This document shows, in pieces, positions 5,259-25,976 of a DNA stretch of 25,976 bases. Within the stretch, counting starts at the first letter, position 1; each line of letters starts with the position of its first letter. This stretch comes from Rubrobacter sp. (GTDB lineage Bacteria > Actinomycetota > Rubrobacteria > Rubrobacterales > Rubrobacteraceae). Below the pieces are notes generated by a model, which worked only from the letters and a program-made list of their open reading frames with translations, had not been told where the DNA came from and did not search any database. Made by a program: the position numbers and the translations under genes. The stretch spans positions 1 to 25,976 of the forward strand of contig JADDPY010000034.1 of assembly GCA_016781635.1 (NCBI GenBank), read 5' to 3'.

Positions 5259-7376
5259 TTAACCCCGACCCCGGACGTCTCTGGCGCGGAAGAGCCGGAG
5301 GCCGTTGAGCGTGACGGCGATGGAGGTGCCCATGTCGACGAGGACGGCGAGCCACAGCGCAACGAGGCCGAAGGGCGCCAGGGCGACGAAAACCCCCTTC
5401 ACGATCACCGAGACGAGGATGTTCTGCTTGATGATCCCCGTGGCGGCGCGCGAGAGCGTCACCGCCTCCGCGAGCTTCGGCAGGTCGTCCTGCATGAGCG
5501 CCACGTCAGCGGTCTCAAGCGCCACGTCGGTGCCCGCCGCACCCATCGCGAAGCCTACGGAGGAGGCGGCGAGCGCCGGCGCGTCGTTTACGCCGTCGCC
5601 GACCATGCCCGCCGAGCCGTGCTCCGCCACGAGCCCGCGCATCGCCTCGACCTTATCTTCGGGCAGGAGCCCGGACCTGTAGCCGATGCCCAGGTTCTCC
5701 GCCGTCCTGCGGGCAGGCGCTTCGGCGTCTCCCGTGAGCATCACGAGGTTCTCGACCCCGGCCTCCCGGAGCGCCGAGATCGTGGCCTTCGCGTCGGGAC
5801 GCACGGCGTCGGCGAGCCCGAAGACGGCGATGGGGCCGTTCTCGTCGCCCAGGATCACCGGCGTTTCGCCCTCCCGTTCGACCTCCTCCAGCGCCCCTCC
5901 GGCGCCATCCAGGGAGACGCCCGCTTCGGCGAAGAGCCGGGGGCTGCCTATAGCGTAGCGTCTTCCCGCGATCTTGCCCTCGGCGCCCCGCCCTGCGACC
6001 GAGCGGAATCCTTCGACCGGCGGCAGGATACCTGTACCGTACCTCTCGGCCTCCGTCAGGATCGCGTGTGCCAGAGGATGCTCCGAGCGCCGTTCCAGCG
6101 CCGCGGCCAACCTCACCGCCTCGGTCTCGTCCTTGCCATTCAGCGCCACGACGCGGGAGACTACGGGTCGGCCCTCCGTCAGAGTACCCGTCTTGTCGAA
6201 GGCAAGCGCCTTGATCCTTCCCGCGGCCTCGAGCGCCGCCCCGCCCTTCACCAGGATGCCCCGCCGCGACGCCGCCCCGATCCCGGAGACCACCGTGACG
6301 GGGGTGGAGATCACGAGCGCGCAAGGGCAAGCGATGATGAGCAGCGCCAGGCCCCGGTAGAACCAATCTCCGAAGGAGGCCCCGAGCAGAGGAGGTACAA
6401 CCGCCAGGAGTACGGCCATCGCCACCACTACCGGCGTGTAGACGCGTGAGAAGCGGTCGACAAACTGTTCTGCGGGCGCCTTCTTCGCCTGCGCATCCTC
6501 CACGAGCCGGACGATGCTCTGAAGCGTCGAGTCCCCCGCTCGCTTCGTCGCCCGGACCAGTAGCCCTCCGGAGCTGTTGAGAGTGCCCGAGTAAACCACG
6601 TCCCTCGGCCCTTTCTCCACCGGCACGCTCTCCCCCGTAACCGGGGCCTCGTCCACCGCCGAAGATCCCTCGGTCACCACGCCGTCTACCGCGAGCCTCT
6701 CGCCGGGCCGGACGACCACGGTCTCACCAACGCCAACATCATCCGCTGGTACGACAACCTCGGCGTTACCCCTCCTGACCAGAACCTCGCTCGGGGCGAG
6801 CCGGACGAGCGAGCGCACCGCGCCCCGCGTCCTGTCCACCGCGTAGACCTGAAGGGCGTTGCCGACGGCGAACAGGACCACGACCGAGGCGGCCTCCGCC
6901 CATTCGCCGATGCCCACGGCCCCGATAGTCGCGGCGCCCATGAGCACGTTCATGTCCATGTGGCGTGCGCGCAAGCCGGCGATGGCCGCCCGGAAGATCG
7001 GCAGCCCCCCGACCACGATGGCGGCTAGGTAAACCCCCACTCGCGCAACCTCCGGCGCACCGGTGAAGCCGAGCGAGAGCCCGACGAGAAACAGGAGCGC
7101 CGATGCGGCCGTCGAGAGCGCCCTCGGGGTACGCCAGAAGGGCGTCCCGTCTACTACCTCGGTACTGCCCACGCCGAAGCCGGCGTCCCTGATCGCCTGC
7201 TCTATCTCTTCAAGCCGGAGGCCGGGGGCGTGCTCGGCGTCCAGGCGGCCCGCCGCGAAGTTCACGGTCGCCCGATGGATGCCGGGCAGCTTTGCGACCC
7301 CTCTCTCTACCGTGATCGCGCAGCTCGCACAGTCCATGCCCTCGACCCGCACCACCGTCCGCTCCGTACCGTCCAC
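5259..7376 (-). CDS. cadA: P1B-type heavy-metal ATPase (Zn/Cd/Pb exporter type)
   Basis: This 705-residue ATP-driven exporter has an N-terminal metal-binding domain with GMDCASC (Cys16, Cys19) and paired membrane helices. The actuator loop contains VTGES. The intramembrane CPC motif is Cys350-Pro-Cys352, the phosphorylated Asp394 lies in DKTGTLT, HP is in SEHPLAHAI, and the hinge reads [15 protein letters not shown] together with Asp in the last helix ([18 protein letters not shown]) points to the Zn2+/Cd2+/Pb2+ (P1B-2) class rather than copper. GTG 7376 is the only canonical start, but its ribosome site is poor. The frame is open upstream as far as the repressor stop at 7475 without ATG, GTG or TTG, so an unusual start (for example CTG) cannot be excluded. 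It follows the CadC-like gene, its likely regulator. Confidence 0.93.
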
Positions 7377-7472
7377 GGGAGGCTCGTACTTATGCTCCTC
7401 GCGCGTCGTCGAACCGACGGGCTGCTCGGCCAGCTCCTGCCCCCAGTACGGGGAGCATCTTCCTCGGGCGGC

Positions 7473-7862
7473 TCATCGCGTCACGGCTTTCGCGGGCTCC
7501 GACTTCTCGCCGAGCACGGCGCCGAGGAGGGCTCGCCCGGCGGGGGTGAGGGAGTACATGACGAGCTTGCCGCTCCGGCGGGAGCCCACGAGGCCGTGGG
7601 AGCGGAGCGTGCGCAGGTGGTGCGAGACCAGGTTCTGGGCGCGAGAGGAGATCCAGGCGAGATCGCAGACGCACAATTCCCCGACCTCTCCCGACTCCCC
7701 TGCCTCGCGCAATGCCGCCGCGAGCGTGAGCCTCGTCGGGTCCGAGAGCGCCCTAGCCCGCTCCGAAGCCTCGCGAGCGGCACCATCCTCCAAGAGCGCC
7801 CGACGGATGCTCTCCGCCCTGGGTGCGTCCAAACAAAGCAAATCACAACGTTCGTTTCTCAT
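7473..7862 (-). CDS. cadC: CadC-like ArsR-family metal-sensing repressor
   Basis: This is a 129-residue winged-helix repressor. Two Cys pairs match the thiolate site of Staphylococcus aureus CadC: Cys6 and Cys10 in the N-terminal arm (ERCDLLCLD), and Cys64 and Cys66 in ELCVCDLAW. The recognition region SSRAQNLVSHHLRTLRSHG and the wing GKLVMYSLTPAGR are intact. In CadC, Cd2+, Pb2+ or Zn2+ binding to these cysteines releases the repressor from its operator. The start ATG at 7862 is preceded by a weak AGGAT. The gene is first in a row with the ATPase about 100 bp downstream, the standard cad arrangement. An inverted repeat lies just upstream. Confidence 0.92.
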   Translation of the reverse strand: MRNERCDLLCLDAPRAESIRRALLEDGAAREASERARALSDPTRLTLAAALREAGESGEVGELCVCDLAWISSRAQNLVSHHLRTLRSHGLVGSRRSGKLVMYSLTPAGRALLGAVLGEKSEPAKAVTR

Positions 7863-7873
7863 GGTTTCATCCT

Positions 7874-7891
7874 AACATGCGTTGAGATGTT
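7874..7891. promoter_or_regulatory. candidate CadC operator (inverted repeat)
   Basis: AACAT (7874-7878) and ATGTT (7887-7891) form a perfect 5-bp inverted repeat with an 8-bp spacer, 12 bp upstream of the repressor start. The position and the A/T-rich arms in otherwise GC-rich DNA fit an ArsR-family operator. Exact operator sequence of this CadC is not known, so this is inference from placement and symmetry. Confidence 0.45.
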
Positions 7892-7997
7892 GGTGTGAAA
7901 AACGTGAGCTGATGACGTCCGGGTCCATGAATATTCCAAAGGGATGAGCTTGCGTCGAACCGAGACGTGGGAGAGGGCGCGCGTTGCGAGGCCCGCG

Positions 7998-8939
7998 TTA
8001 CTCGCTTTGGGAGCGGAATTTGAGGGAGTGGAGGGTGGCGTGGTGGTCACCGGCGTGGTCGACCTGAAGGGTGGTGTGTTCTATGCCGTACTCGTGTTCC
8101 AGCAGCTCTTCGAGCTCGCGGCGTTTGTCGTGGCAGTTCTCGTCGCGGCCGACGAGGACGTGGGCGGCCAGGGCGGGGAAGCCGCTGGTTATCGTCCAGA
8201 TGTGGAGGTCGTGGACCTCCCGTACGCCATCGACGCCGACCATCTTGCCGCCCACGTTTTCGGCGTCGATGCCGCGGGGGGTGGCTTCGAGGAGGATGAT
8301 GACCGAGTCTCGCAGGAGCTTCCATGAGGAGGCGAGGACCAGGAGGCCGATAAGGGCGCTGACCAGGGGGTCCGCGTAGCGCCAGCCGGTGAAGATGATG
8401 ACGACGGCGGCGATTATCGCGCCGACCGAGCCGAAGACGTCGGCGATCACGTGCCGCAGGGCGCCCTCGACGTTCAGGCTTTCACCGCTCGAGCGCGAGA
8501 GGATCACGGCCCCGGCGATGTTCACCAGGAGGCCGAGCACGGCGACGGCGAGCATCAGTCCGCCCAAGACCTCCGGCGGCTCCGAGAGGCGCTGGTATGC
8601 CTCCACGAAGATCCAGACCGATATCGCTACGAGCGTCAACCCGTTGAACAGGGCGGCGAGAATCTCCGCCCGCCGGAAGCCGAAGCTGCGGGACGGTGTC
8701 GCCGGGCGACCGGCGAGCCAGGCGGCGAAGAGCGCCACCGCTAGAGAGGCGGTGTCCGAGAGCATGTGTCCGGCGTCGGCCAGTAGGGCAAGGGAGCCCG
8801 TGAAGAGGCCCCCGATCACCTCGGCCACCATGAAACAGCCGGTCAGGGCCAGCACGACCGCGAGCGAACGCTTCGGCGTGCTCTGATGATCGTGGGAGTG
8901 CCCGTGACCCCCATGCGAGTGATCGTGCCCGTGGCCCAC
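7998..8939 (-). CDS. czcD: CDF family divalent cation exporter (CzcD/ZitB-like)
   Basis: The product has 313 residues. A His-rich N-terminus (GHGHDHSHGGHGHSHDH) precedes six membrane helices. The transport-site motifs are HMLSD in helix 2 (within LLADAGHMLSDTASL) and HVIADVFGS in helix 5, giving the H/D set usual for Zn2+/Cd2+ proton antiporters. The cytosolic C-terminal domain contains VREVHDLHIWTITSG and ends in a His-containing tail (VDHAGDHHATLH). The start is GTG 8939, with AGGAGGGC 9 bases upstream; it lies 5 bp after the stop of the small upstream gene, so the two are probably co-transcribed with the HtrA-like gene. Zn2+ is the most likely substrate by family. Confidence 0.93.
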   Translation of the reverse strand: MGHGHDHSHGGHGHSHDHQSTPKRSLAVVLALTGCFMVAEVIGGLFTGSLALLADAGHMLSDTASLAVALFAAWLAGRPATPSRSFGFRRAEILAALFNGLTLVAISVWIFVEAYQRLSEPPEVLGGLMLAVAVLGLLVNIAGAVILSRSSGESLNVEGALRHVIADVFGSVGAIIAAVVIIFTGWRYADPLVSALIGLLVLASSWKLLRDSVIILLEATPRGIDAENVGGKMVGVDGVREVHDLHIWTITSGFPALAAHVLVGRDENCHDKRRELEELLEHEYGIEHTTLQVDHAGDHHATLHSLKFRSQSE

Positions 8940-8944
8940 CGGTG

Positions 8945-9172
8945 TCAGCCCTCCTCGTACTGCTTGAGGGCGAGCCAGATCCCGAAGCCGATCTGCGCCG
9001 CGCCCAGGGCCCGCATGTAGTTCGGGTTCTCGGCGAAGAAGCGGGCGACCCTACGAGCAGCCTCGGGCCCCGCCTCCCAAAGAAGGGAATGCTGCTTCGG
9101 CGCGATCACCTCTATAGCGCCATCTCCTATGGTCAAGATTGCGAAAGTCTCGACCATCCGCTTCTTCCACAC
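8945..9172 (-). CDS. small protein of unknown function
   Basis: The product has 75 residues and is not a family I can name. It starts at GTG 9172, chosen because GGAGGGG lies about 8 bases upstream; the longer frame to 9202 would overlap the preceding gene. It contains ETFAILTIGDGAIEVIAPKQ, then a Trp/Arg-rich middle (SLLWEAGPEAARRVARFF), and ends with an alanine/glycine-rich, weakly hydrophobic helix (RALGAAQIGFGIWLAL). This looks like a small peripheral or single-pass membrane protein. It sits 26 bp after the HtrA-like gene and 5 bp before the CDF exporter, so it belongs to that operon. Confidence 0.65.
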   Translation of the reverse strand: MWKKRMVETFAILTIGDGAIEVIAPKQHSLLWEAGPEAARRVARFFAENPNYMRALGAAQIGFGIWLALKQYEEG

Positions 9173-9198
9173 GCTAGTGCCCCTCCTATCCGTGATTC

Positions 9199-10293
9199 TC
9201 AACGTCGCGGGCTCTCGTCCAGCTCGGCCTCGAACTGCTGCTCCTCGCCGTCCCGGACGACCGTCAGGTCTATGGTATCGCCGGGACGATAGTCGCGCAG
9301 GGTCCCCAGGAGGTCGCCGTAGCTCGCGACCTCGACGTCGCCGGCCGCCGCGATCACGTCGCCCCGCTCCAGCCCGGCTTCGTCCGCCGGACCGCCAGGC
9401 ACGACGTCCCGGACAAGCACCCCTCCGTTGACCGGGATACCGAACTGCTCGGCGTCCTCCGGGGAGAGTGCTTCCAGATCGACCCCCAGGAACGGCTGGG
9501 TCGCTTCCCCGTCCTCGATAAGCTGGTCGGCGACCGAGATCGCCGTATCCGAAGGAATCGCGAACCCTATGTTTTCCGCACCGGTCTGCGCCGGCGGCAG
9601 GTAGGCGACGTTGATACCGACGATCTCTCCGGCGCGGTCGGCCAGCCCGCCGCCCGAGTTGCCGGGGGAGATGGCCGCATCCGTCTGGATAAGGTCGACG
9701 AGCGAGCTGTCGCCCCCCGTGAGCTCCGGCGGCAGGGACCTGTTGATGCCGCTTATGACCCCGGCGGTCACGGTGGATTGGAACCCGGACGGGCTCCCTA
9801 TCGCGACCGCGAGCTGGCCTGGCGTCAGGTCCGCGCCCTCACGGAACCGCGCCGCCGGCAGGTCGCCCCGCTCCACCTTCACGACCGCAAGGTCGGTGGC
9901 ACGATCGTTCCCGACGACCTCGCCGCGCTCGATGCTCCCGTCGGCGAAGGCGATGTTGACCTCGCTCGCGTCCTGGACCACATGATTGTTCGTGACGATG
10001 AAGCCGTCCTCGCGGTAGATCACACCGCTACCCAGCCCCTGCGCCTCTTGCGTCCCGAACGGCGTCTCCTGGATCCCCTCCACGTTCACCTGAACGATGC
10101 TCGGCTCCACCTGCGACGCCACCTGCGCCACGGGCTCGTCTCCGGAGACGCCGGCGCTCGGCTCGGGTGCCTCCTGAGCCACGTTCGTAGCTTTTTGCCC
10201 GGATTCCTCGGACCGATCGCCCCCGAAAGTGCATCCTCCCGTAAGCGTCAGCAGGGCTACCATCACAGGAAGCGCCAACTTTCTTCTAGTCAT
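9199..10293 (-). CDS. HtrA/DegP-like trypsin-fold serine protease with PDZ domain, probable lipoprotein
   Basis: This is a 364-residue exported protease. A signal peptide with a lipobox-like LTGGC (Cys21) suggests lipid anchoring, and a Ser/Glu-rich linker follows. The chymotrypsin-fold domain has the catalytic triad His104 (TNNHVV), Asp134 (ATDLAVVK) and Ser213 (SPGNSGGG). One C-terminal PDZ domain (about 265-355) includes PFLGVDLEAL and GGPADEAGLERGDVIAAAGD. HtrA proteases degrade or refold damaged envelope proteins. The ATG at 10293 has GGGAGG about 10 bases upstream. It leads an operon with a small protein and the CDF exporter, which links envelope stress and metal export; that link is inference. 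Confidence 0.95.
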   Translation of the reverse strand: MTRRKLALPVMVALLTLTGGCTFGGDRSEESGQKATNVAQEAPEPSAGVSGDEPVAQVASQVEPSIVQVNVEGIQETPFGTQEAQGLGSGVIYREDGFIVTNNHVVQDASEVNIAFADGSIERGEVVGNDRATDLAVVKVERGDLPAARFREGADLTPGQLAVAIGSPSGFQSTVTAGVISGINRSLPPELTGGDSSLVDLIQTDAAISPGNSGGGLADRAGEIVGINVAYLPPAQTGAENIGFAIPSDTAISVADQLIEDGEATQPFLGVDLEALSPEDAEQFGIPVNGGVLVRDVVPGGPADEAGLERGDVIAAAGDVEVASYGDLLGTLRDYRPGDTIDLTVVRDGEEQQFEAELDESPRR

Positions 10294-10386
10294 CCTTCAT
10301 ACCTCCCGCTGGCAGCGCCGTGTTCGTGAGGACCTGCGATCTTTGCCCCGCCTCGCCGAACCAGCGTGAAGGGCGAACTTGCTCTG

Positions 10387-10392
10387 AGTATA
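10387..10392 (-). promoter_or_regulatory. candidate extended -10 element for the HtrA-like operon
   Basis: Read on the minus strand, this is TATACT preceded by TGG, i.e. an extended -10 (TGnTATACT), about 94 bases before the HtrA-like start. No good -35 is visible at the usual distance, which is acceptable for extended -10 promoters. No experimental support is available. Confidence 0.4.
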
Positions 10393-10449
10393 CCAATGCC
10401 TCCGCGCCCCTTACCGTCCCCGCTCTTACCGCCCGGCTCCACGGACGGT

Positions 10450-10706
10450 CTGTTGGAGGTACAGCGGGCGGCATGGAATCGGTGTGGCCGAAGTCGAAGC
10501 CGTCGGTTGCGGCGAGAAGCTTTCCCCCAGGGGGCCTTTGTTCGAGAAGCCGGAGACGACGAGGGCTTGTTTCCCCCGACGCGTACCTCGAAGCCCATGG
10601 CCCCCAGTTTGCGGACGCTGCGCTCGAAGCAGCCCGGACGCAGGGCTGCAATAGGGGAGAGCGGGGAAACAATGCCCACTGCGTCGCCTTTCAGGAGGCG
10701 GGTGGA
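10450..10706 (-). pseudogene. relic of an LD-carboxypeptidase (LdcA-like, peptidase family S66)
   Basis: The 436-bp gap between the HtrA-like gene and the next gene holds two disconnected pieces of one family. From about 10706 to 10577 the minus strand encodes LLKGDAVGIVSPLSPIAALR and then FERSVRKLGAMGFEVRVG, the N-terminal beta-strand and helix of LD-carboxypeptidases ('GDTIGIVSPSSPIA...FERGV..LE.MGFEV'). From about 10520 to 10465, in a different frame, it encodes GFDFGHTDSMPPAVP, the C-terminal catalytic-His segment ('GLDFGHTDPMLTLP'). Roughly 230 residues between them are missing, the frames disagree, and a stop lies just before the first piece. This is a gene destroyed by a large internal deletion. 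The family assignment is from remembered motifs. Confidence 0.7.
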
Positions 10707-10729
10707 TCATCGGTGCGCCACCGTGCTTG

Positions 10730-10996
10730 TCAGCGGAGCTTGTCTTTGACCTTCTCTTCTTCGTCTTTGAGGTAGAGAAAGACGTCCTGGGCGAAGCGGA
10801 CGGCGTGCTCTTCGGGCAGGTTGATCCTGCGGTTGGCGATCACCGACCCGAGCTCGCGAATGGCGGCATCCGCCATCCCGACCATCATCTCGGCCTCGTG
10901 CAAGACCTCCTGACGCTCGGATTCCGAGAGCTCCCGGGGATTCTCGGTTTTCTCCCTGTGCTCCCTGAGGTATTCGATGAAGTCTCTGATTCCCAA
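10730..10996 (-). CDS. small helical protein of unknown function
   Basis: The product has 88 residues, is acidic and almost entirely helical, and has no membrane segment or cysteine. The TTG start at 10996 has AAGGAAGG 7 bases upstream, and a consensus TATAAT lies farther upstream, so expression is credible. Visible features are FIEYLREHREKTENP, a central AEMMVGMADAAIRELGSVIA and a charged C-terminal helix (LKDEEEKVKDKLR). I do not recognise the family. It lies downstream of the BchB-like gene on the same strand but has its own promoter-like element, so it need not be related to it. Confidence 0.7.
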   Translation of the reverse strand: MGIRDFIEYLREHREKTENPRELSESERQEVLHEAEMMVGMADAAIRELGSVIANRRINLPEEHAVRFAQDVFLYLKDEEEKVKDKLR

Positions 10997-11046: not shown

Positions 11047-12462
11047 TCAGGGACGGCTGTCCTCCAGGATCTCGGGGGTTACGGTGGGTGAGCCGGCGGC
11101 CCTCGCCCGCTCCTCGGCGAGCCTGCGCGTGCGGCCCCTCAGAAAGGCCGGCACGTCCTCCAGCGCCTCCAGCGCCTCCTCGGTCCATCCGAGTGCACGG
11201 GCTTTGCCTCCACGCCTGTGTTCCCTCGGCGGATTGCCCAAAGCGCCATCGAGGGCGTCGGCGAGCACGCTCGACCCCGAATAGCCCATCAGCGGCTTCC
11301 CCACGAATGGATTCTGAGCAACGGGGGGGCAGAGGGGCAGGAACGGGATGCCGAGGGCGTCGGCGACGTCTCCTTCGAGGTGTGTGCCGACGATGAGGTC
11401 CGGGTCCGCCTCCTCCACGCGGGCGGCGACCTCGTCGGGGTCGTCGGTGACGAACGCTTCTTCGGTGAACGTTCCGGCTTGGAAAAGGAAGTCCTTTTCG
11501 AGCTGAGAGAGGTACGTCCCCGCCCATGCGACCTCTAGCCCAACCTCACGCGCCAAGGTGTACCCCAGCCCGAGAGCGTAGGTGAAATCTCCGAAGATGA
11601 CGGCCCTGCGCCCTGCGAACGTCTCGGGGACGGCGAGGCGAGCGTACCATGGCAGCTTCGCCGTTCGCGCGAGCTCCGCCCACACCGTCCGGCGCACCCT
11701 CCCTGCGTCCAGCGAGCACAGCTCGCCCACCGCCCGCATGACCGCTCCCGTCCCCGCCGAGCCCAGGGGCGGGGTCGTCACGCGCGGCATCCCGAACTCG
11801 TTCTGCAAGAAGCGGGTCGCCGCTTCTCCGACCTCCCGGTAGAGCACGATGTTCGCCCAGGCCCGGGGGAGGCGGGCGAACTCTCCGACCGAGGTACCGA
11901 GCGGCACCCGTGTCGCGCCGATCCCCAGAAGGTTCAGGAGACGCTCCACCTCCCGGGCTTCCTCCTCCGCGCCCGGCCCGAAGAGCGGCGGTCCGAAGAT
12001 GTTGACCGTCGGGGTCAGGCTTCTCGCCTGGGGCCTCGCGTGTACCCTGACGAGCTCCTCGAGGGCGAGGTCGGCGGCCTCGATCTCGCGCAAGGAAGGC
12101 GACTCCCAGGGGCAGGTCACGAGCTTCGGCCTCCGGCCGGTCTCGCTGCTCTCGGGGAGTACGGGATCAGAGAACTCTTCCCCGGAGAGCAGTGCCGCCT
12201 CGGAACGCACCAGGATCACCGCCTCGGCGTCGGGAGACCTGCGCAAGATCTCCTGCAGGTCGCGCGCGAGACCCGGACCGCCGACGGGGCTCAGGGAGAC
12301 CGGCGCCGGATCCCCGGAACGCGTGAGCGCGCCGTGGATCGCCGAGAAGTACCCCTCCTCCGGGTAGGCGCGCAGCACCGCCTGCACCCCCTCTACGGAA
12401 GCCGCTACCCGAAGGATGCCGTGGCTGCCGGGGCCCTCGTAGAGGCCGCGCAGTACCCTCAC
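11047..12462 (-). CDS. BchB-like (DPOR subunit B / nitrogenase component 1 family) protein
   Basis: This 471-residue protein is co-linear with BchB, the B subunit of dark-operative protochlorophyllide reductase. It starts GLYEGPGSHGILRVAASVEG (BchB: 'YEGPxHxGxMRxAxxMxG'). A middle domain contains NIFGPPLFGPG and VPLGTSVGEFARL. A third domain contains VIFGDFTYALGLGYTLAREV, AFVTDDPDEV and IVGTHLEGDVADALGIP. The C-terminal PCP_red-like tail reads GWTEEALEALEDVPAFLRGR. In Rhodobacter capsulatus BchB, Asp36 ligates the 4Fe-4S cluster; ungapped alignment from the N-terminus puts Glu36 here. The Cys of the BchB 'CTAELL' segment is absent (RSEAALL). It lies 25 bp after the BchN-like gene. The substrate is unknown, and no BchL-like reductase is in the window. 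The start is GTG 12462. Confidence 0.85.
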   Translation of the reverse strand: MRVLRGLYEGPGSHGILRVAASVEGVQAVLRAYPEEGYFSAIHGALTRSGDPAPVSLSPVGGPGLARDLQEILRRSPDAEAVILVRSEAALLSGEEFSDPVLPESSETGRRPKLVTCPWESPSLREIEAADLALEELVRVHARPQARSLTPTVNIFGPPLFGPGAEEEAREVERLLNLLGIGATRVPLGTSVGEFARLPRAWANIVLYREVGEAATRFLQNEFGMPRVTTPPLGSAGTGAVMRAVGELCSLDAGRVRRTVWAELARTAKLPWYARLAVPETFAGRRAVIFGDFTYALGLGYTLAREVGLEVAWAGTYLSQLEKDFLFQAGTFTEEAFVTDDPDEVAARVEEADPDLIVGTHLEGDVADALGIPFLPLCPPVAQNPFVGKPLMGYSGSSVLADALDGALGNPPREHRRGGKARALGWTEEALEALEDVPAFLRGRTRRLAEERARAAGSPTVTPEILEDSRP

Positions 12463-12487
12463 CCTCGCCCCGTACTACCTACCGGAC

Positions 12488-13876
12488 TCACAGGTTGAGG
12501 GCGTCCAGGGCCTCGGCCCGCTCGAACGTCTGGGCGAAGAGCGCGAGCACCCTGCGCGCCCCCTCGTAACCCCGCGGATCGAGGGCGAGAAGGGCCAGCG
12601 ACGAGCGGCACAGGTGCCCTCGCGCCACGAGTGGGACGAAGAGACCAGGGCTCGCCACTACCACATCCGGACGGGCCGCTTCTATACGCTCGAGCTGCGC
12701 CCGCCAGTCCGGGGCCTCGACCACGTCCACGTCCGATCCCAACGCCGAGAGCTCCACCCCGAGAAAGCGCTTCTCCAGGCGCGGCGTCCCCACCTCCAGG
12801 ACGACCGCCCCCGCGTTCGCAAGGAAGCGGGCGAGCGGGATCTCCAAACCCGAGTCCCCGGTAAGGAAGACTCGCTTGCCCCGGATCCTGCTTCGAAGGT
12901 GCTCGATGCCCTCCCAGACCTGCCGAGCGTGGACCACCTCGCTCGTTATGCCTCCGGTCGCCGCTACGACGTCGCCGATGAAGCGGGCCGTGCCGTCCAC
13001 CCCGATGGGGAACAGCGTCCTCACCACCTGTGCCCCGCGTTCCTCTGCCTTCCGAGCCGCCCGGACGAGGTATGGGTCCAGGACCGCCACGACAGTCCCC
13101 TCCCCGACCACCGGAAGCTCCGGAACCCCGCCCGGCAAGCCGCCCCGCGCGTCCGCCGGCACGCTCCCGACGACCTCGACCCCGGCCCGCCTGAGATCCG
13201 AGGCCAACTCTTCCCGCGAACCCGAAGCCCCGCCGAGCAGCACGACCGGTCTGCGCTCGAATACGTCATCGTGCGCCCCGTGGCCCCCCGACCTCCCCCT
13301 CAACCTGCCGAGAAAACCGGCCCTGGCGCCAACCTTGGCTCCGGCTTTGGCCGGCAACGGCTCCTCGTGCTCCGGGCCCGAAACACCGCGGGGGCTAAGG
13401 CCGACGAGGACCCGCAGCGTCTCGTCCACGAGCTCCTTGGAGAGTACGGCGGAGGCTTCCTCTGAGATGCCGATCGCCCGTACCGGCAGGCCTCCCAGAC
13501 GCCGCTCGGCAAGCTCCGCCTCGAAGTGGGGATCCACCCCCAGGAGGCGCGCCGAGCGGCAGGCGACGATCAGCACCACGCCGACATCGCGTGAGCCCGA
13601 AGCGACCTCGAAGATGCGAGAAGTCAGAATCCCGCCCTCCGGCCGCTCGTCCGGCTCCAGAAGAACGAAGGAGACGCCCGGCAAACCCGGTGCGTCGGCC
13701 GGGGCGGGCGCCGCGGGGGAGCCCGGGAGCGGGCCGGAGAGGGAGAGGGAGAGGTGCAAGTCGGCTCGGGTGCCGGCCACGACGATCAGGGCATCCCCAA
13801 GGTCCTCCGCCAGGCCGGAGAGGCCGTGCAGCGGGGAGACGACGTCTGGTACCCCCGACTCGTTGAGGATGGTCAA
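12488..13876 (-). CDS. BchN-like (DPOR subunit N / nitrogenase component 1 family) protein, degenerate cluster site
   Basis: The product has 462 residues; the TTG start at 13876 is preceded by AGGGAG. It is weakly BchN-like: SPLHGLSGLAEDLGDALIVV followed by GTRADLHL aligns with the BchN N-terminus ('CxxxCxxWLHQKIEDSFFLVxGTKTCAHLL'), and LIVACRSARLLGVDP with 'LVGSCPSEVIKLDL'. A C-terminal Rossmann-like domain has RGKRVFLTGDSGLEIPLARF. Of the three BchN cluster ligands (Cys26, Cys51, Cys112 in R. capsulatus), the first two positions are Ser14 and Asp39 here; only Cys106 matches the third. A basic, Gly/Ala-rich insert (about 175-200) precedes the second domain. It pairs with the BchB-like gene 25 bp downstream. 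It may hold an altered cluster or none. Confidence 0.75.
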   Translation of the reverse strand: MTILNESGVPDVVSPLHGLSGLAEDLGDALIVVAGTRADLHLSLSLSGPLPGSPAAPAPADAPGLPGVSFVLLEPDERPEGGILTSRIFEVASGSRDVGVVLIVACRSARLLGVDPHFEAELAERRLGGLPVRAIGISEEASAVLSKELVDETLRVLVGLSPRGVSGPEHEEPLPAKAGAKVGARAGFLGRLRGRSGGHGAHDDVFERRPVVLLGGASGSREELASDLRRAGVEVVGSVPADARGGLPGGVPELPVVGEGTVVAVLDPYLVRAARKAEERGAQVVRTLFPIGVDGTARFIGDVVAATGGITSEVVHARQVWEGIEHLRSRIRGKRVFLTGDSGLEIPLARFLANAGAVVLEVGTPRLEKRFLGVELSALGSDVDVVEAPDWRAQLERIEAARPDVVVASPGLFVPLVARGHLCRSSLALLALDPRGYEGARRVLALFAQTFERAEALDALNL

Positions 13877-13937: not shown

Positions 13938-14660
13938 TTAGTGTAAGGCGTCGAGGGTCTCGAGCGCCAGCTCCATCATGTTGTCCACCGCGCCTTTGAG
14001 GGAGGAGTCTTCTATACGCTCGACGCCCTCGGCAGCGATGGTGTCGGAGACCGTGAGCAGGCAGCCGGCTTTCACGCCGTGCATCGCCGCCAGCGTGAAG
14101 ATCACCGCCGCCTCCATCTCGACCGCGAGCACGCCGAGGGAGTTCCAGAGCTCCTGGGGGTCCTCCTCGGGGTCGTAGAAGAGGTCAGAGCTCACTATGG
14201 GCCCGAGGAAACGCCTGCGCTCCGGGGCGATTCGCTGGGCCGCGTGGTAAGCGGCGTGTACGAGGTCGAAATGGGCGGCCGGGGCGTACGGCATACCCTG
14301 CGTGATGCTGGAAACCGTGCCGTCCTGGGCGGTGGCGGCGGTCGCGATCACGAGGTCTCCCAGAGTCATCTCGGGGTTGTAGCCGCCGCAGGTGCCGACC
14401 CGGAGGAGGTTCTTCGCCCCGAGCCGTATGAGCTCCTCCGTCACGATCGCGGCCGACGGGCATCCCATCCCCGTGGTCTGCACCGAGACGGGCTTACCCT
14501 TGTAAGTGCCGGTGTACCCGAGCATCCCCCGCTCTTCGGTAACGAGCCTCGCACCCTCGAAGAAGTTGTCGGCGATATACTTCGCTCGCCTCGGGTCCCC
14601 CGGCAACAGCACGTTCTCGGCAAAATCTTCCGGCTCGGCCCGCACGTGGACAGGGCTCAT
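13938..14660 (-). CDS. deoD: DeoD-type purine nucleoside phosphorylase
   Basis: This 240-residue enzyme splits purine (deoxy)nucleosides with phosphate into base and (deoxy)ribose 1-phosphate. The phosphate-binding N-terminus reads NVLLPGDPRRAKYIADNFF, and RVGTCGGYNPEMTLGDL gives the phosphate Arg and loop. The nucleoside-binding segment is GVLAVEMEAAVIFTLAA. TVSDTIAAEG contains the Asp equivalent to the catalytic Asp204 of the E. coli enzyme. The ATG at 14660 is chosen over GTG 14681 because GGGAG lies 5 bases upstream and the protein then begins MSPVHVRAEPEDFAENV, as in the family. It lies downstream of pdp and deoB on the same strand, forming a nucleoside salvage set. Uridine phosphorylase is the main alternative but fits less well. 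Confidence 0.9.
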   Translation of the reverse strand: MSPVHVRAEPEDFAENVLLPGDPRRAKYIADNFFEGARLVTEERGMLGYTGTYKGKPVSVQTTGMGCPSAAIVTEELIRLGAKNLLRVGTCGGYNPEMTLGDLVIATAATAQDGTVSSITQGMPYAPAAHFDLVHAAYHAAQRIAPERRRFLGPIVSSDLFYDPEEDPQELWNSLGVLAVEMEAAVIFTLAAMHGVKAGCLLTVSDTIAAEGVERIEDSSLKGAVDNMMELALETLDALH

Positions 14661-14763
14661 CTGTCTCCCTTCGATAGACACTGGTCGACACGCCGCCTCT
14701 CAGCGGTCTGCTCTCTGTTGCGCCTGCTGCTCCCGGATCGGCTCGCCGGACCGTCTCCTCTGA

Positions 14764-14813: not shown

Positions 14814-16109
14814 TTACAAGCTCCCAAGGATAACAGGGGGGCGCCGCGTGGGCTCGTCTGAAACCTTCAAAGAGGACCGGATTAACTCCTCAGCCCTCCC
14901 GGCGTTGCGCGAGCCGTAGATCCGGGCGACCGGCTGTCCCTCTTCGACTCTATCCCCCGTCTTGACCAGGACCTCGACGCCGACCCCCGGGTCCACCCGT
15001 TCGCCCTTCTTCTCCCTTCCGGCGCCGAGCGCGAGGGCGGCTCGTCCGACCCCCAGAGCCCCGAACTCGACCACGTGGCCGGGGCGGGGTGTCGTGACCT
15101 CGCGGACGTCCCCCGAGACGGGCAGATCCTCCAGGGCCTCCGCGTCGCCGCCCTGGGCCGCGACAAACTCGCGGAGCTTCTCGAAGGCGGCGCCGGAGGA
15201 GAGGGCGCGTTCCACGGCTCCCTCCGCATCACCGATGCCCTTGAGCTCCAGCAGGCGGGCCGCCACGACGCGGGCCATCTCCGAGAGGTCGGCGGGGGTG
15301 CCTTCGCCTCTGAGGAAGCGCACGCTCTCTCGAACCTCCAGCGCGTTGCCGATGGCGGACCCTAGAGGCTCGTCCATATCCGTTATGAGGGCCGAGGCTT
15401 GTATGCCCGAGTCGTTGCTGAGGCGAACGAGGAGGCTCGCGAGCTCGCGGGCTTCTTCCGTGCTCTTCATGAAGGCGCCCGAGCCCTGCTTCACGTCGTA
15501 GAGGAGGTGGCCGGCGCCGGTTGCTGCTTTTTTGGAGACGATGGAGGAGCCGATGAGGGGCAGGGAGTCGACCGTGCCGGTGGCGTCGCGGAGGGCGTAG
15601 ATCGCCTTATCCGCCGGGGCGACCTCTCCGGCCTCCACTATAGCGAGGCCCACCCCTTCCACCTGACGGCGGAACCGTTCCTCGGAGAGGGCTACGGAGA
15701 AGCCCGGGATCGCCTCCAACTTATCGACCGTCCCGCCGGTCGTACCGAGCCCCCGGCCCGAGAGCTTGGCGACAGGCGCCCCGCAGGCGGCGACGATGGG
15801 GAGAGAGGTCAGAGAAATCTTATCTCCAACCCCACCTGTGGAATGCTTATCCACGCACTCCGGGAAGGAGTACCGTGCCCCGGAACGGGCCATCGCCGCG
15901 GTGAGCGCCAGCGTCTCCCCGTACCCCATCCCCCTGATAAAGATCGCCATCAGGAGCGCGGACATCTGGTAATCGGGCACCGCCTCCGTGGTGTAGCCCT
16001 CGATCACCTCCTGGATCAGACCTTCCGAGAGCTCGCCGCCCCGTTTCTTGAGCTCTATGGCTTCCAGCACCGGGCTTCCCGAACGTGCTGCGCCTCCGTT
16101 ACCGGTCAA
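14814..16109 (-). CDS. pdp: pyrimidine-nucleoside (thymidine) phosphorylase
   Basis: The product has 431 residues. TTG 16109 is preferred over ATG 16160 because AAGGAGG lies exactly 6 bases upstream and the length then matches the family. It phosphorolyses thymidine, and probably uridine, to base plus sugar 1-phosphate. The phosphate site is KHSTGGVGDK (about 88-97). The pyrimidine site comprises ALRDATGTVDSLPLI with its Arg, and SSIVSKK with Ser and Lys. A dimer-interface helical domain lies at the N-terminus and the C-terminal domain has RPGHVVEFGALGVGRAALAL. One oddity is that the usual SGRGLGHTGGT reads SGRGLGTTGGT. It lies between deoB and deoD in the same orientation; products feed DeoB. 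Confidence 0.93.
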   Translation of the reverse strand: MTGNGGAARSGSPVLEAIELKKRGGELSEGLIQEVIEGYTTEAVPDYQMSALLMAIFIRGMGYGETLALTAAMARSGARYSFPECVDKHSTGGVGDKISLTSLPIVAACGAPVAKLSGRGLGTTGGTVDKLEAIPGFSVALSEERFRRQVEGVGLAIVEAGEVAPADKAIYALRDATGTVDSLPLIGSSIVSKKAATGAGHLLYDVKQGSGAFMKSTEEARELASLLVRLSNDSGIQASALITDMDEPLGSAIGNALEVRESVRFLRGEGTPADLSEMARVVAARLLELKGIGDAEGAVERALSSGAAFEKLREFVAAQGGDAEALEDLPVSGDVREVTTPRPGHVVEFGALGVGRAALALGAGREKKGERVDPGVGVEVLVKTGDRVEEGQPVARIYGSRNAGRAEELIRSSLKVSDEPTRRPPVILGSL

Positions 16110-16327
16110 GCCGTACCTCCTTCTGAGCCTCCGGTCCACGCGTTTTTCGGGGGCTAGCATGGTATTCTCGCAATCTTACCGGCTAGCTCACAGAAGCTCG
16201 GATCGAGCGGCTACTCCTCCCCGAATACTCCCTGGCCCTTCCCGAAGCCCGCCTGCACTACAGCGTTCCCGAGCCCCCGCTGGTAAGCACCGCCATATCC
16301 AAATGTCCCTCCACCTACCTCCCACGT

Positions 16328-17503
16328 CTACGCGAGAAAGCTTTTCCCTGGCAACCCTTCTTTCTCCACCCCGAGCCACGCCGCCACGGTCGCGCCCACA
16401 TCAGAGAAGCCGCCCCTGATGCCCAGGGGCCGGCCTGCGACTGCGTCTCCCCCTACGACCAGAAGAGGGACGCGCTCTCTAGTGTGGTCGGTGCCCCTGA
16501 ATGTCGGGTCGTTGCCGTGGTCTGCGGTGACGATAAGCAGATCGTCCTCCGAGAGGGCCGCGAGGATACCGGGTACCCGGGCATCGAAGCGTTCGAGGTT
16601 CTCGGCCATACCTTCGGGGTCGCGGCGGTGACCGTACTTCGCGTCGAAGTCCACGAGGTTAGCGAAGACGAGCCCGGATTCCACGCTTCCCAGGGCTTCG
16701 AGGACGGCGTCGACCTTTGCGGCGTCGTCGGGTTGTCCGGGGAGGTGCTCTGTGATGCCGCGTCCGTCGAAGATGTCCCGGACCTTGCCGACGGCGACCA
16801 CCTCGTGGCCGGCATTCTTCAGGAGGTCCAGGTACGTGGCGCGGGGCGGGGTGATGCCGTAGTCGTGGCGGTTCTCGTGCTCCCGCTCGTAGGCTCCGGG
16901 GCTCCCGTGGAAGGGGCGTGCGATCACGCGCTCGACGAGAATCTGACCCTCCCCGATGAGCATCGCATGAGCCTTCTCGCAGGCCTCATAGAGCTCCTTC
17001 AGGGGGACCACACCGGTGTGCGCCGCAACCTGAAAGACCGAGTCGGCGGAGGTGTAGACGATCCAGGCGCCGGTCCCCTCATGCTCGGGGCCGAGCCTCT
17101 CTAAAATCTCCGTCCCCGATGCCGGCTCGTTCCCTATGACCTTGCGCCCGGTCTCCCCCTCGAAGCGCGAGAGGATCTCCTCCGGGAACCCTTCGGGGTA
17201 GGTCGGCAGCGCATCCTCGATGACGATCCCCATCATCTCCCAGTGGCCGGCGAGCGTAGCCTTGGCCGCCGAACGCTCCTCCATGAGCCCGTAGCCCGCC
17301 CGCGGATCCTCGACCGGCGGAACTCCCTCCGTCTCGACGGCGTTGCCCAGGCCCAGGGAGACAAGGTTCGGCACATTCAAACCGCCTACCGCACGCGCAG
17401 TGTTGCCTAGCGTGTTCGCTCCCTCGTCGCCGAACTCCGCGGTGTCGGGAGCGTCCCCCGCCCCCACGCCGTCAAGCACCAGGATCACGGCCCTCCGGCC
17501 CAT
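16328..17503 (-). CDS. deoB: phosphopentomutase
   Basis: This 391-residue cytosolic metalloenzyme interconverts (deoxy)ribose 1-phosphate and 5-phosphate, linking nucleoside breakdown to the pentose pathway. It belongs to the alkaline phosphatase superfamily. The first metal-site Asp is Asp11 (VLDGVGAGDAPD), the phosphorylated Thr is Thr83 in KATLAGHWEMMG, and the C-terminal metal ligands are in VTADHGNDPTFRGTDHTRE. NLVDFDAKYGHRRDPEG is another strong family segment. The ATG at 17503 has AGGAGG about 7 bases upstream. It is the first gene of the set deoB-pdp-deoD; gaps of about 218 and 153 bp mean that one transcript is likely but not certain. Confidence 0.95.
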   Translation of the reverse strand: MGRRAVILVLDGVGAGDAPDTAEFGDEGANTLGNTARAVGGLNVPNLVSLGLGNAVETEGVPPVEDPRAGYGLMEERSAAKATLAGHWEMMGIVIEDALPTYPEGFPEEILSRFEGETGRKVIGNEPASGTEILERLGPEHEGTGAWIVYTSADSVFQVAAHTGVVPLKELYEACEKAHAMLIGEGQILVERVIARPFHGSPGAYEREHENRHDYGITPPRATYLDLLKNAGHEVVAVGKVRDIFDGRGITEHLPGQPDDAAKVDAVLEALGSVESGLVFANLVDFDAKYGHRRDPEGMAENLERFDARVPGILAALSEDDLLIVTADHGNDPTFRGTDHTRERVPLLVVGGDAVAGRPLGIRGGFSDVGATVAAWLGVEKEGLPGKSFLA

Positions 17504-23460: not shown

Positions 23461-24258
23461 TTGGCTTCAGAAGTTCCGCAAACACCCGTGGCGGTCGTAA
23501 CCGGTGCCGGGCGAGGCATCGGCCGCCGGGTGGCGATCACCCTCGCCGAGCGTGGCTACGCCGTGGCCGCGAACGACCTCGAAGCGCCGGATGGGACGCT
23601 CGAGGAGTTGCGAGCGCTCGGCGTCCCCGCCCTCTCGCTCCCCGGCGACGTCTCGGAAGAGGGAATGGTGCGGGAGATGCTGGAGGTGGTTATGGACGAG
23701 TTCGGGCGCGTGGACTCGCTCGTGAACAATGCCGGCGTGAGCTTTATCGCCCCGGCAGAGGAGACTACGCTCTCGGACTGGCGGCGCGTCCTGGAGGTTA
23801 ACCTCACCGGGCCGTTTCTCATGAGCCGCATCTTCGGCGTCGAGATGCTGCGGCGGGGGAGCGGCAGCATCGTCAACGTGAGCTCCGTGGCGGGGCTTCT
23901 CGGGATCGGGGACCGGGCGGCGTACAACGCGAGCAAGCACGGGCTTATCGGCCTCACGCGTACCCTGGCCGCCGAGTGGGGCGGCCGGGGCGTGCGCGTC
24001 AACGCCGTCTGCCCCGGCTGGGTCAAAACGGAGATGGACGTATCGGTCCCACAACACCAAAACACAGCCCCGCGAGGTCTCCTTCCACCTCGACCGTTCC
24101 GTCTTCCCCGGTGGTGGCCCGGAGGCCTACCATCTGGTAGATCCTGCGCCTCTCCGTTTGGGAGAGTCCGTCTATCTGGCGCGGGGTTACCTCCTTCAGG
24201 CTCTCGAGGAGGGCGTCCTTGTTGTGGCGCATCTCTTCGAGTTGTTTGCCCCTCTTGA
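23461..24258 (+). pseudogene. short-chain dehydrogenase/reductase, 3' end replaced by an inserted element
   Basis: The TTG start at 23461 follows GGGGGAGG. Residues 1-193 are a normal SDR: cofactor motif TGAGRGIG (14-21), NNAG (89-92), and catalytic Ser142, Tyr155 and Lys159 (VSSVAG, AAYNASK). The NAVCPGWVKTEMD segment ends at Asp193. After that the family sequence stops. The frame runs on for about 72 residues of proline/arginine-rich translation antisense to the recombinase gene and ends at 24258. The lost part normally holds the substrate loop and the last strand and helices, so the product is probably inactive. The missing 3' end should lie at the far end of the inserted element, outside the window. 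It was the third gene of its operon. Confidence 0.85.
24023..24060. other. probable attachment-site junction (attL) of the element
   Basis: SDR homology ends at codon 193 (24037-24039), and beyond this the DNA is recombinase coding sequence on the other strand, so the crossover lies near 24030-24060. The exact core cannot be fixed because the other junction is outside the window. No long direct or inverted repeat is obvious, as expected for serine integrases, whose cores can be 2 bp. Confidence 0.6.
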
Positions 24259-25738
24259 GGAGGGAGTCGACCTCCCCCTCAGCGATCGATCTCTCATCCT
24301 CCAGCTCCTGGAGGTGCTCCTTGAGCTCGGCGAAGTCGATCAGCCCCTCCGCCGCCATCTCCTGGTAGCGCTTGCGCTTGTTGTCGAGCGCCGAGATTCT
24401 CTCCAGCCACCTTTTGGCTTCTTCTGAGGGGTCGCGGCCCGAAGACTCCTCCGCTTTTTGGCGGATCATCTTCTCCAAGCCCGCCTCGAGCCTCGCGGGT
24501 TCTTTGAGGAAGGCCGAGACCTCCTCCCAGACCCGGACCTCCAGCGCACCGGCGCGGTAGGTCCTGCGGTAGGAGCAGAGCTCCTTGTGGGTCGACGCGT
24601 ACTGGCAGCGGTAGTAGTGGTAGCGCACCTTTTTGCCCCCCTTCTTGGAGTAGGAGGCGTGGGCCGCCATCGAACGTCCGCAGCCGCCGCAGCGGAAGAT
24701 GCCGCCGGAGAGCTCCCAAAAACGATCGTCCGCCCTGGACGAGGGCCCGTTCCCTTCCAGGCGTTGCCTCGCCGCCTCGACCACGGCCTTGGGGATGCCG
24801 GCGTCGGGGACGGGGATGCCGATCCACTCGCTCTTGTCTTTGATGGCGCGCTTGGTCTTCTTCTTGTAGATCCTGCCCGCCGGCGTGTCCACCGCGACGG
24901 AGCGCGTGGAGACCCTCTCGCGGTTGAAGTAGTAGACCCCGTAGGTTTTCGTGGGGTCCACCGCGGCGAGGACCTGAGGGGTGAGGATCTCCTCGAGTTC
25001 GTCGTAGGAGTGCGGCCTGTAGGAGTCCTCCCACACCATCCTCTTCACGATGGCCCGCTCCCAGATCCTCTTGCCGGTGGGCGTCGGTACCCCCTCCCGC
25101 TTGAGGGCGGCTATGACCCCGTGAACGCCGACGCTTTCGACGCCGATCAGGTGGAATATCCGGCGGACGATCGCCATCTTCTCTTCGTCCACCTCGTAAC
25201 CGAGGCCCGACGCGTTCGCCCTGAAGCCGTACCTCGTCCTCTTCGCGTTCACTATTTTGCCCGAGCGAGCCTTCTGCAGCTTGCCTCTTCGGGTCCTCTC
25301 CGCCATCTTCGCCCGCTCGAACTTGGCGAGCTGGTCGAGGATGCCGTCGGTGAGCTCCCCCTCCGGCGTGTCGTCCCCCCGATCGTTGAGGGCACGAAGC
25401 TTGCAGCCGCGGTCCTCGAACTCGCGCTTGAGGAGGTAGTGGTAGGCCGGCTCGCGGGCGAAGCGGTCCCGATCCTGAGCCAGGACGACGGTGACGCCGC
25501 CCCCGTCCACGAGGTCCCGAACCCTGTCCATCCCCGGCCGCTCCAGGCTTGCCCCGCTTTGCCCCGGGTCGGCGATCTCCTCCAAGACCTCGTACCCCTC
25601 AAAGGCCGCGTACCCCCTCAAGGCCTCCATCTGCTGCTCCAAAGAGTAGCCACTCCTGACCTGCTCGTCGGTGGAGACCCGAGCGTAGAGTATGGCCCGC
25701 TGGGGTTGCCGGCCGTTGCCGTGCGCTCCGTTTGACAT
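24023..25738 (-). CDS. large serine recombinase (integrase) of an integrated element
   Basis: The product has 571 residues; ATG 25738 is chosen because GAGGAGG lies 4-5 bases upstream. The N-terminal resolvase domain has the nucleophile Ser22 (LYARVSTDEQ), GQSGASLERPGMDRV and LAQDRDRFAR. The recombinase domain follows (RTRYGFRANASGLGYEVDEE onward). A zinc ribbon has Cys350-x2-Cys353 and Cys378-x9-Cys388. Then comes a long coiled coil (about 430-520) typical of integrases controlled by a directionality factor, and a short C-terminal strand region. It catalyses attP x attB exchange. It lies at the left end of the element, antisense to the broken SDR. Its last residues (about GPIRPSPF) and stop appear to be encoded by the host SDR DNA. 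Confidence 0.95.
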   Translation of the reverse strand: MSNGAHGNGRQPQRAILYARVSTDEQVRSGYSLEQQMEALRGYAAFEGYEVLEEIADPGQSGASLERPGMDRVRDLVDGGGVTVVLAQDRDRFAREPAYHYLLKREFEDRGCKLRALNDRGDDTPEGELTDGILDQLAKFERAKMAERTRRGKLQKARSGKIVNAKRTRYGFRANASGLGYEVDEEKMAIVRRIFHLIGVESVGVHGVIAALKREGVPTPTGKRIWERAIVKRMVWEDSYRPHSYDELEEILTPQVLAAVDPTKTYGVYYFNRERVSTRSVAVDTPAGRIYKKKTKRAIKDKSEWIGIPVPDAGIPKAVVEAARQRLEGNGPSSRADDRFWELSGGIFRCGGCGRSMAAHASYSKKGGKKVRYHYYRCQYASTHKELCSYRRTYRAGALEVRVWEEVSAFLKEPARLEAGLEKMIRQKAEESSGRDPSEEAKRWLERISALDNKRKRYQEMAAEGLIDFAELKEHLQELEDERSIAEGEVDSLLKRGKQLEEMRHNKDALLESLKEVTPRQIDGLSQTERRRIYQMVGLRATTGEDGTVEVEGDLAGLCFGVVGPIRPSPF

Positions 25739-25976
25739 GTTTCCTCCTCGGCAAGGGGAGCCGCTCAAAAACCGCTACAGCCCGCAAGAACGCTGCGAAA
25801 GACGAAACCCCTCGAACGAGGGGCCAAGAAGAGAACCTTGGTTGCCTCCTCGGCCTCATCTCCCCTTAGCGGGCTGGTGGCACCTCGGCGTTCTCAAGCC
25901 AGGTTGCCGGACGGTCGAAGGGCCAGATCCCTCGCGCCTCTCTCGATGAGATATTCGATTTGCTACTAAGAGCATC
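25739..25976. other. non-coding start of the inserted element, with an inverted repeat
   Basis: The 238 bp upstream of the recombinase to the window edge contain no convincing gene. CCCCTCG (25808-25814) and CGAGGGG (25817-25823) form a 7-bp inverted repeat with a 2-base centre, about 70 bp upstream of the recombinase start. It could be an operator. The last 35 bases are clearly more A/T-rich than the rest of the window. No promoter could be assigned with confidence. Confidence 0.35.

Follow-up and report, generated by a model that had tools for sequence, protein, structure and literature searches.

The stretch of DNA examined here, hereafter the window, is one whole contig of 25,976 nucleotides (JADDPY010000034.1) from a fragmented Rubrobacter sp. 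assembly (GCA_016781635.1; 3.22 Mb in 707 contigs, 77.7% complete). Close relatives, among them Rubrobacter marinus and named assemblies of the Rubrobacteraceae, place it in that family. On its minus strand, to which all window coordinates below refer, lie in order the genes for the phosphopentomutase DeoB (16328..17503), a pyrimidine-nucleoside phosphorylase (PyNP, 14814..16160), a purine-nucleoside phosphorylase of the DeoD type (PNP, 13938..14681) and, directly downstream of the latter, two proteins related to the BchN and BchB subunits of dark-operative protochlorophyllide oxidoreductase (DPOR), which we term N' (12488..13876, 462 residues, TTG start) and B' (11047..12462, 471 residues, GTG start). 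They are followed by an unannotated protein of 88 residues, X (10730..10996), which is helical by eye and whose TTG start is preceded by a ribosome-binding-like site, AGGAAGG. Our analyses indicate that N' and B' very probably constitute a cluster-free complex that is not a DPOR, and that the pair has probably been turned to a new job. The association with the phosphorylases and X is new here, being absent from a preliminary description of this DNA.

That description had recognized N' and B' as an adjacent BchN/BchB-like pair, and both open frames are present where it had placed them. The assignment is borne out, as each protein best matched these two among the nitrogenase-like families, with scores under the equivalog cut-offs: DPOR_bchN for N' (191.7 bits, cut-off 420 bits) and the ChlB/BchB model for B' (418 bits, cut-off 509 bits), together with a C-terminal PF08369 PCP_red domain in B' (11059..11187, 49.7 bits). 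The Nif models and those of BchY/BchZ, which belong to the same superfamily, scored far weaker (BchZ 50 vs. 418 bits on B'; BchY 34 vs. 192 bits on N'), and the closest solved structures by sequence were ChlN/ChlB and BchN/BchB. Single-chain AlphaFold2 models of N' (mean pLDDT 75.5, pTM 0.76) and B' (mean pLDDT 75.0, pTM 0.66) had the overall BchN/BchB fold, with BchN chains as the best PDB matches of N' (2xdq_A, E 5.2e-26; 8vqh_C, target TM 0.86) and BchB chains as those of B' (2ynm_D, E 5.9e-28; 3aek_B, target TM 0.75). Pairwise ratios of non-synonymous to synonymous substitution (dN/dS, simple Nei-Gojobori counts) were 0.16-0.27 for N' and 0.15-0.18 for B' (five pairs each); single pairs gave 0.13 (X) and 0.12 (PNP). 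The low values identify these as maintained proteins.

Residues at the former cluster site

The ligand positions were compared in an alignment of 30 N' proteins (29 genomes) and 32 B' proteins (31 genomes) of the Rubrobacter family with 34 BchN and 36 BchB proteins from 36 phototroph loci; the N' fragment of R. marinus and the pair of genome G040 were excluded from these family counts, in which genome G005 was counted twice. Ligand residue numbers (BchN Cys26, Cys51 and Cys112; BchB Asp36) are those of the preliminary description. The three BchN ligand columns held cysteine in 33 (with one gap), 34 and 34 of the 34 phototroph proteins, and in none of the 30 family N' proteins at any of the three. 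The Cys26 column contained Ser (19), Pro (9), Ala (1) or His (1) and corresponds to Ser14 of the window (13835..13837), the Cys51 column Glu (24) or Asp (6; Asp39 in the window, 13760..13762), and the Cys112 column Arg (25), Trp (2), Leu (2) or His (1; Arg107 in the window, 13556..13558). BchB Asp36, found in 36/36 phototrophs, was Glu in all 32 family B' proteins (Glu36, 12355..12357), and the equally invariant BchB Cys95 (Roseobacter numbering; 36/36) was replaced by Glu in 26 and Asp in six (Glu88, 12199..12201).

The preliminary description had likewise put Ser14, Asp39 and Glu36 at the Cys26, Cys51 and Asp36 positions, and its notion of a degenerate Fe-S site with an Asp36-to-Glu change holds. 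It had also put Cys106 at the Cys112 position, which is off by one: in the ungapped motif VGSCPSE / VACRSAR, Arg107 stands at the Cys112 position and Cys106 at the preceding Ser, and consequently all three cysteines, rather than two of three, are lost. Cys106 itself is cysteine in six of the 30 family proteins and in 93 of the 105 rows of a wider N' alignment (A3), which mostly represent the window's own subclade. (A3 took 104 of 120 N' matches; its B' counterpart, A4, took 100 of 120 B' matches.) An altered cluster with Cys106 as a ligand was considered and rejected: the residue misses the ligand position by one, varies across the family and has only one other cysteine beside it in the window's N'.

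Cysteine counts, which hardly depend on the alignment, agree with this. There are two cysteines in the window's N' and at most two in 7/30 family proteins, and the first 160 residues contain zero or one in 16/30, vs. at least four in 34/34 canonical BchN. In no family N' protein (0/30) do all three ligand positions have a cysteine three columns away or nearer, and none places three cysteines at the cluster in the sequence alignment. An altered DPOR-type Fe-S cluster, one of the variants that the preliminary description had offered, is thus unsupported, as N' cannot supply the three cysteines. Nor does the family retain the P-cluster cysteines of NifDK at the positions that aligned clearly, those of two NifD cysteines and the NifK cysteine, where it has Asp/Glu, Arg and Glu/Asp, respectively.

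The losses extend to the catalytic site. Asp274 of BchB, the proton donor according to the portions available of two papers (PMC12518044, PMC4157233), was Asp in 36/36 phototrophs and Pro, Val, Ser, Arg, Thr or Ala in 32/32 family B' proteins. His378 was present in 36/36 phototroph BchB and 0/32 family B', and the eight-residue stretch 402-409 of BchB was missing in 32/32 family B'.

Two further regions vary. N' contains an insert not in canonical BchN (residues 165-206, 13259..13384) that was modeled with low confidence, is probably disordered and bears a basic-hydrophobic motif; a pattern for this motif, composed after the rows had been viewed, matched 23/30 family proteins, 66/105 A3 rows, 0/34 canonical proteins and 1.6% of shuffled segments. 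The PCP_red tail of B' is missing in some family members (G028, G034, G035, and G062), in which the B' profile matches stop near position 420 of 480. X is retained in G028, G034, and G035, the genomes of this group that were searched for it. In many family genomes a separate protein, mostly in frames of ~780-880 residues, weakly matches the B' profile over its PCP_red-like tail (e.g., G012:C4:2445026-2445223).

Ancestry and chlorophyll-pathway partners

The equivalents of Cys51 and Cys112 are cysteine in NifD, NifE, BchY, a Chlorohelix nitrogenase-like protein and the pair of G040, although for NifD no clean alignment of the Cys26 column was obtained. As ligand-type cysteines are also seen by eye in the DPOR of genome G223, we infer that their absence is derived in the Rubrobacter family and not ancestral. 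The N' and B' families each formed one clade (SH-aLRT 99-100) in trees made with a quick method, in which long branches render deep placement unsafe; the B' family grouped with G040 in one tree (support 83) and not in another. A contig scan for intermediates found 25 family loci (≥57% identity), 34 others (27-31%) and none between, although it relied on two short patterns that recovered only part of the family and may have missed an intermediate. Among 396 genomes of the phylum, with at most four candidates per genome scored, 41 had a match at E 1e-8, namely 34 of the family and seven others: the intact DPOR of G223, the Cys- and Asp-containing pair of G040, three that are nitrogenase-like in appearance (G361, G039, and G290), and G088 and G295.

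Two of these loci deserve description in their own right. Locus L168 (G223:C99, ~7109-10722) is an intact BchL-BchN-BchB operon, beside which two open frames resemble BchE-type radical-SAM (S-adenosylmethionine) proteins by eye; a type II reaction center (PF00124) was not found in this genome. Locus L035 (G040:C4, ~7899-10372) is a divergent BchN/BchB-like pair with Cys and Asp at the cluster positions, from a small genome (1.3 Mb).

Partner-gene profiles for BchL (TIGR01281), BchM (TIGR02021), and BchH (TIGR02025) were run on 39 family genomes. BchL scored over its cut-off in 0/39, including relatives rated 100% complete (the source genome being 77.7% complete). Sub-threshold matches occurred in 38/39 and covered short N-terminal stretches, as expected from other P-loop ATPases; the same search gave matches in all 14 control genomes too. 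No BchL-like gene is found among the annotated open frames of the window, in agreement with the preliminary description. The source genome has one PF00142 match, of 25.5 bits over profile residues 4-56, just above the 25-bit Pfam cut-off. Another NifH-like reductase was accordingly rejected as a candidate, the TIGR01281 result being 0/39 and the lone PF00142 match short and borderline, and the different reductase partner that had been suggested earlier has no support. Lacking a reductase, N'B' would be unable to run DPOR chemistry.

BchM and BchH were each found over the cut-off in 0/39 family genomes. BchH/CobN-like matches were present in 32/39, the full-length ones mostly at 770-806 bits vs. 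the BchH cut-off of 829, and the two proteins that were scanned (G000 and G024) proved to be CobN (1236 and 1220 bits vs. a cut-off of 822). Remnants of a chlorophyll pathway were rejected on these grounds. Based on these chelatase-like sequences, corrin synthesis is likely in many family genomes. Three genomes of one genus (G010, G022, and G030; 96-99% complete) and G019 (98%) had no BchH/CobN-like match at E 0.001, and all four keep N', B', and X. A magnesium-tetrapyrrole role is unlikely in view of the absence of BchM and BchH over their cut-offs, the CobN identity of the two proteins scanned, and this retention of N'B'X in genomes lacking a BchH/CobN-like match.

These results bear on two alternative explanations. 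It is conceivable that the DPOR pocket holds a heme, corrin, or porphyrin for storage, sensing, or protection without redox chemistry, as the DPOR ancestry and fold and the chelatase genes, CobN in both cases scanned, would allow. We consider this quite unlikely, as Asp274, His378 and the 402-409 stretch are gone from every family B' aligned, BchM is absent over its cut-off, and N'B'X persists in the four genomes just named; the tetrapyrrole-binding role put forward in the preliminary description has thus gained no positive support. The second alternative, that the pair is a working or ancestral DPOR whose cluster is unusual and whose reductase is ParA-like, is the photosynthesis-related reading reportedly published by Gupta and Khadka in 2016. 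The DPOR-subfamily similarity speaks for it, as does the position of the clade outside canonical DPOR in the trees, where an early branch would lie. It is nonetheless highly improbable and already contradicted by sequence, given that the ligand cysteines are absent and their absence derived, that BchL is missing over its cut-off in 39 genomes and that both BchH-like proteins checked are CobN.

The conserved gene block

Of 36 family genomes, counting the source genome, 30 had a match to N' and 32 had matches to both B' and X, which always occurred together. X was found in none of 24 other genomes of the phylum, in which N' and B' matched only G040, weakly. A strong B' match was present in 34 of 39 family genomes, those without one being G006, G008, G009, G020, and G061. 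The order PyNP-PNP-N'-B'-X on one strand was seen in 19/19 family regions (18 genomes), with gaps, measured from aligned starts, of 38-118 bp from PNP to N' in 19/19, -4 to 28 bp from N' to B' in 17/19, the other two being 64 and 190 bp, and 11-181 bp from B' to X in 18/19, the other being 642 bp. In a second, partly overlapping set of regions (L093-L117), 21 of the 23 N'-to-B' gaps measured fell in the same range (-4 to 28 bp), and the other two were 329 and 464 bp. DeoB, HtrA, and a cation-efflux gene lie at distances that differ between regions; DeoB, which in the window comes next upstream, elsewhere falls at differing distances or beyond the sequence retrieved. Both phosphorylases were sought in 22 family genomes, and the genomes lacking a strong match to either were the four that also lack N'B'X (G006, G008, G009, and G020). 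The block is gained, lost, or missed as one unit, and incomplete assemblies do not separate loss from gaps.

X had no Pfam match over the cut-off and, against PDB, nothing with E under 0.7. Two of three X proteins scanned gave a sub-threshold match to PF01409 (tRNA-synt_2d; 14-15 bits, cut-off 19.8); this resemblance may explain the name phenylalanyl-tRNA synthetase alpha subunit that X bears in some sources. A database search with an E limit of 10 returned 1,747 matches, and among the 120 matches listed the names were hypothetical or ill-fitting.

Could N' and B' instead be decaying relicts without function? The complete genome of R. marinus lends this some color, as its N', PNP, and PyNP are in frame-shifted pieces while B' and X are whole (L093, G002:C1 ~3134700-3139700), a state in which error and decay are indistinguishable. 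That the two phosphorylases are broken in the same stretch suggests, however, either errors in the sequence or an event confined to that spot, and dN/dS of 0.15-0.27 together with retention of B' in 34 of 39 family genomes already contradicts decay, which we hold to be extremely improbable. As a separate observation, G005 (5% contamination) has two copies of the block, on contigs C85 and C42, with N' proteins 81 and 60% identical to that of the window; these are either paralogs or the product of a mixed assembly.

Elsewhere in the window, an open frame downstream of X (10293-10706) resembles the start of an LD-carboxypeptidase by eye, Pfam being empty on 10290-10679. A large serine recombinase with Resolvase, Recombinase, and zinc-ribbon domains (24023-25768) is possibly of mobile-element origin, and a SAM riboswitch (RF00162, 51.1 bits) lies at the contig edge (25853-25952).

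Possible role and significance of the complex

N'B' shares with the BchN/BchB (ChlN/ChlB) pair of DPOR the two subunits, the N-B gene order, the predicted fold, the C-terminal PCP_red domain, and an acid at BchB position 36. It differs in having no cluster cysteines, Asp274, His378, residues 402-409, or BchL, and the extra N' insert, the phosphorylase block and X are found only on its side. On the sequence evidence, N'B' is derived from DPOR, yet it lacks the DPOR cluster, proton donor, and partner, and for this reason we do not file it as a DPOR. The repurposed enzyme proposed in the preliminary description is supported in general terms, as the genes remain under purifying selection although the cluster ligands, the proton donor and BchL have been lost; the specific variants proposed with it are not.

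We suggest that in the Rubrobacter family N' and B', on the assumption that the chains still pair, make up a complex of DPOR descent, probably a heterotetramer, which would bind no DPOR [4Fe-4S] cluster and take no electrons from an ATPase of the BchL/NifH type. Charged side chains may fill the former cluster cavity: N' Asp/Glu39, B' Glu36 and B' Glu/Asp88 together with, in most cases, N' Arg107 and B' Arg31. X would be the third component. N'B'X could then act as a non-redox ligand-binding scaffold or regulator for nucleoside phosphorolysis, with a flat ligand, e.g., a nucleobase or nucleotide, perhaps held at the old protochlorophyllide site. We favor such a nucleoside-linked, non-redox role tentatively, giving it a little under an even chance. 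A NifDK-type heterotetramer can act as a scaffold with a small partner, as NifEN does with NifX, and NifEN-NifX structures were among the structural matches; the likeness is one of a scaffold and small partner. NifEN carries clusters and cofactor precursors, whereas N'B' is without the ligands and X is without a Pfam match over the cut-off.

Several observations weigh against this explanation. G025 and G032 have B' and X but gave no match to N', and some gaps within the block are long: 190 bp (L052), 329 bp (L108), and 464 bp (L116) between N' and B', and 642 bp (L051), 575 bp (L105), and 952 bp (L117) between B' and X. HtrA and the cation-efflux gene recur nearby too. The co-occurrence of the block with the phosphorylases may reflect assembly gaps, as three of G006, G008, G009, and G020 are 75-89% complete and G020 is 94% complete, or it could be inherited synteny without a functional link. 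The structural models cover single chains only, with a pTM for B' of just 0.66. Finally, near-invariant new cysteines (N' Cys423 in 30/30, B' Cys249 in 32/32, and B' Cys378 in 30/32) make a new cofactor possible.

The recurrence of HtrA and cation efflux and the long gaps in the block, which make the synteny only partly specific, would suit a cluster-free complex whose function is unrelated to nucleosides and which merely shares an operon and its regulation. The five-gene core keeps one order and strand in 19/19 regions, whereas DeoB, HtrA, and the efflux gene stand at differing distances from it; this argues the other way, and we regard such hitchhiking as unlikely, if still a serious contender. 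The acids found at three old cluster-region positions in every aligned family protein, like the new conserved cysteines, could also mean that the carboxylate-rich site or these cysteines bind another metal and catalyze a new reaction. This we think unlikely, since the Arg residues that now stand where Cys112 and His31 were suggest that salt bridges, not a metal, occupy the site, and since Arg107 is replaced by Trp, Leu, or His in 5/30. In the boldest reading, which we rate as rather doubtful, the Fe-S site of a nitrogenase-superfamily heterotetramer gave way to a cage of invariant carboxylates (N' Asp/Glu39, B' Glu36, and B' Glu/Asp88), and the complex, with X as its own small subunit, came to act in nucleoside and pentose-phosphate salvage as an enzyme or regulator that is Mg/Mn-dependent or purely ligand-gated; this branch of the superfamily would be entirely without Fe-S chemistry.

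The presence of the pair in Rubrobacter is not new, as the preliminary description had stated. In the portions available of earlier papers, BchB/BchN homologs are noted as common to Rubrobacteria with no sign of phototrophy (PMC7901476), a different function is speculated for them (PMC7203096), and BchN/BchB in Rubrobacter are described as unconnected to phototrophy (PMC9561532) or simply noted (PMC6473150), while one paper cites Gupta and Khadka for a possibly phototrophic ancestry of Actinobacteria via these homologs (PMC4783071). Those portions mention neither the lost ligands nor X nor the phosphorylase block, the work of Gupta and Khadka (2016) itself lying outside this search. The loss of the cluster, the block, and the partner X thus appear to be unreported in the literature as far as it was available.

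Fe-S redox chemistry is what nitrogenase-like proteins are known for, and a selected, lineage-wide branch without the cluster would show that their scaffold is reusable. The argument for ancestrally photosynthetic Actinobacteria is weakened, as all cluster ligands are lost in the family, BchL and BchM are absent over their cut-offs, and CobN lies behind the two BchH-like matches checked. With two phosphorylases and X in the same block the function of N'B' is directly testable, and the cluster-free branch, if true, would offer a defined system in which to do so.

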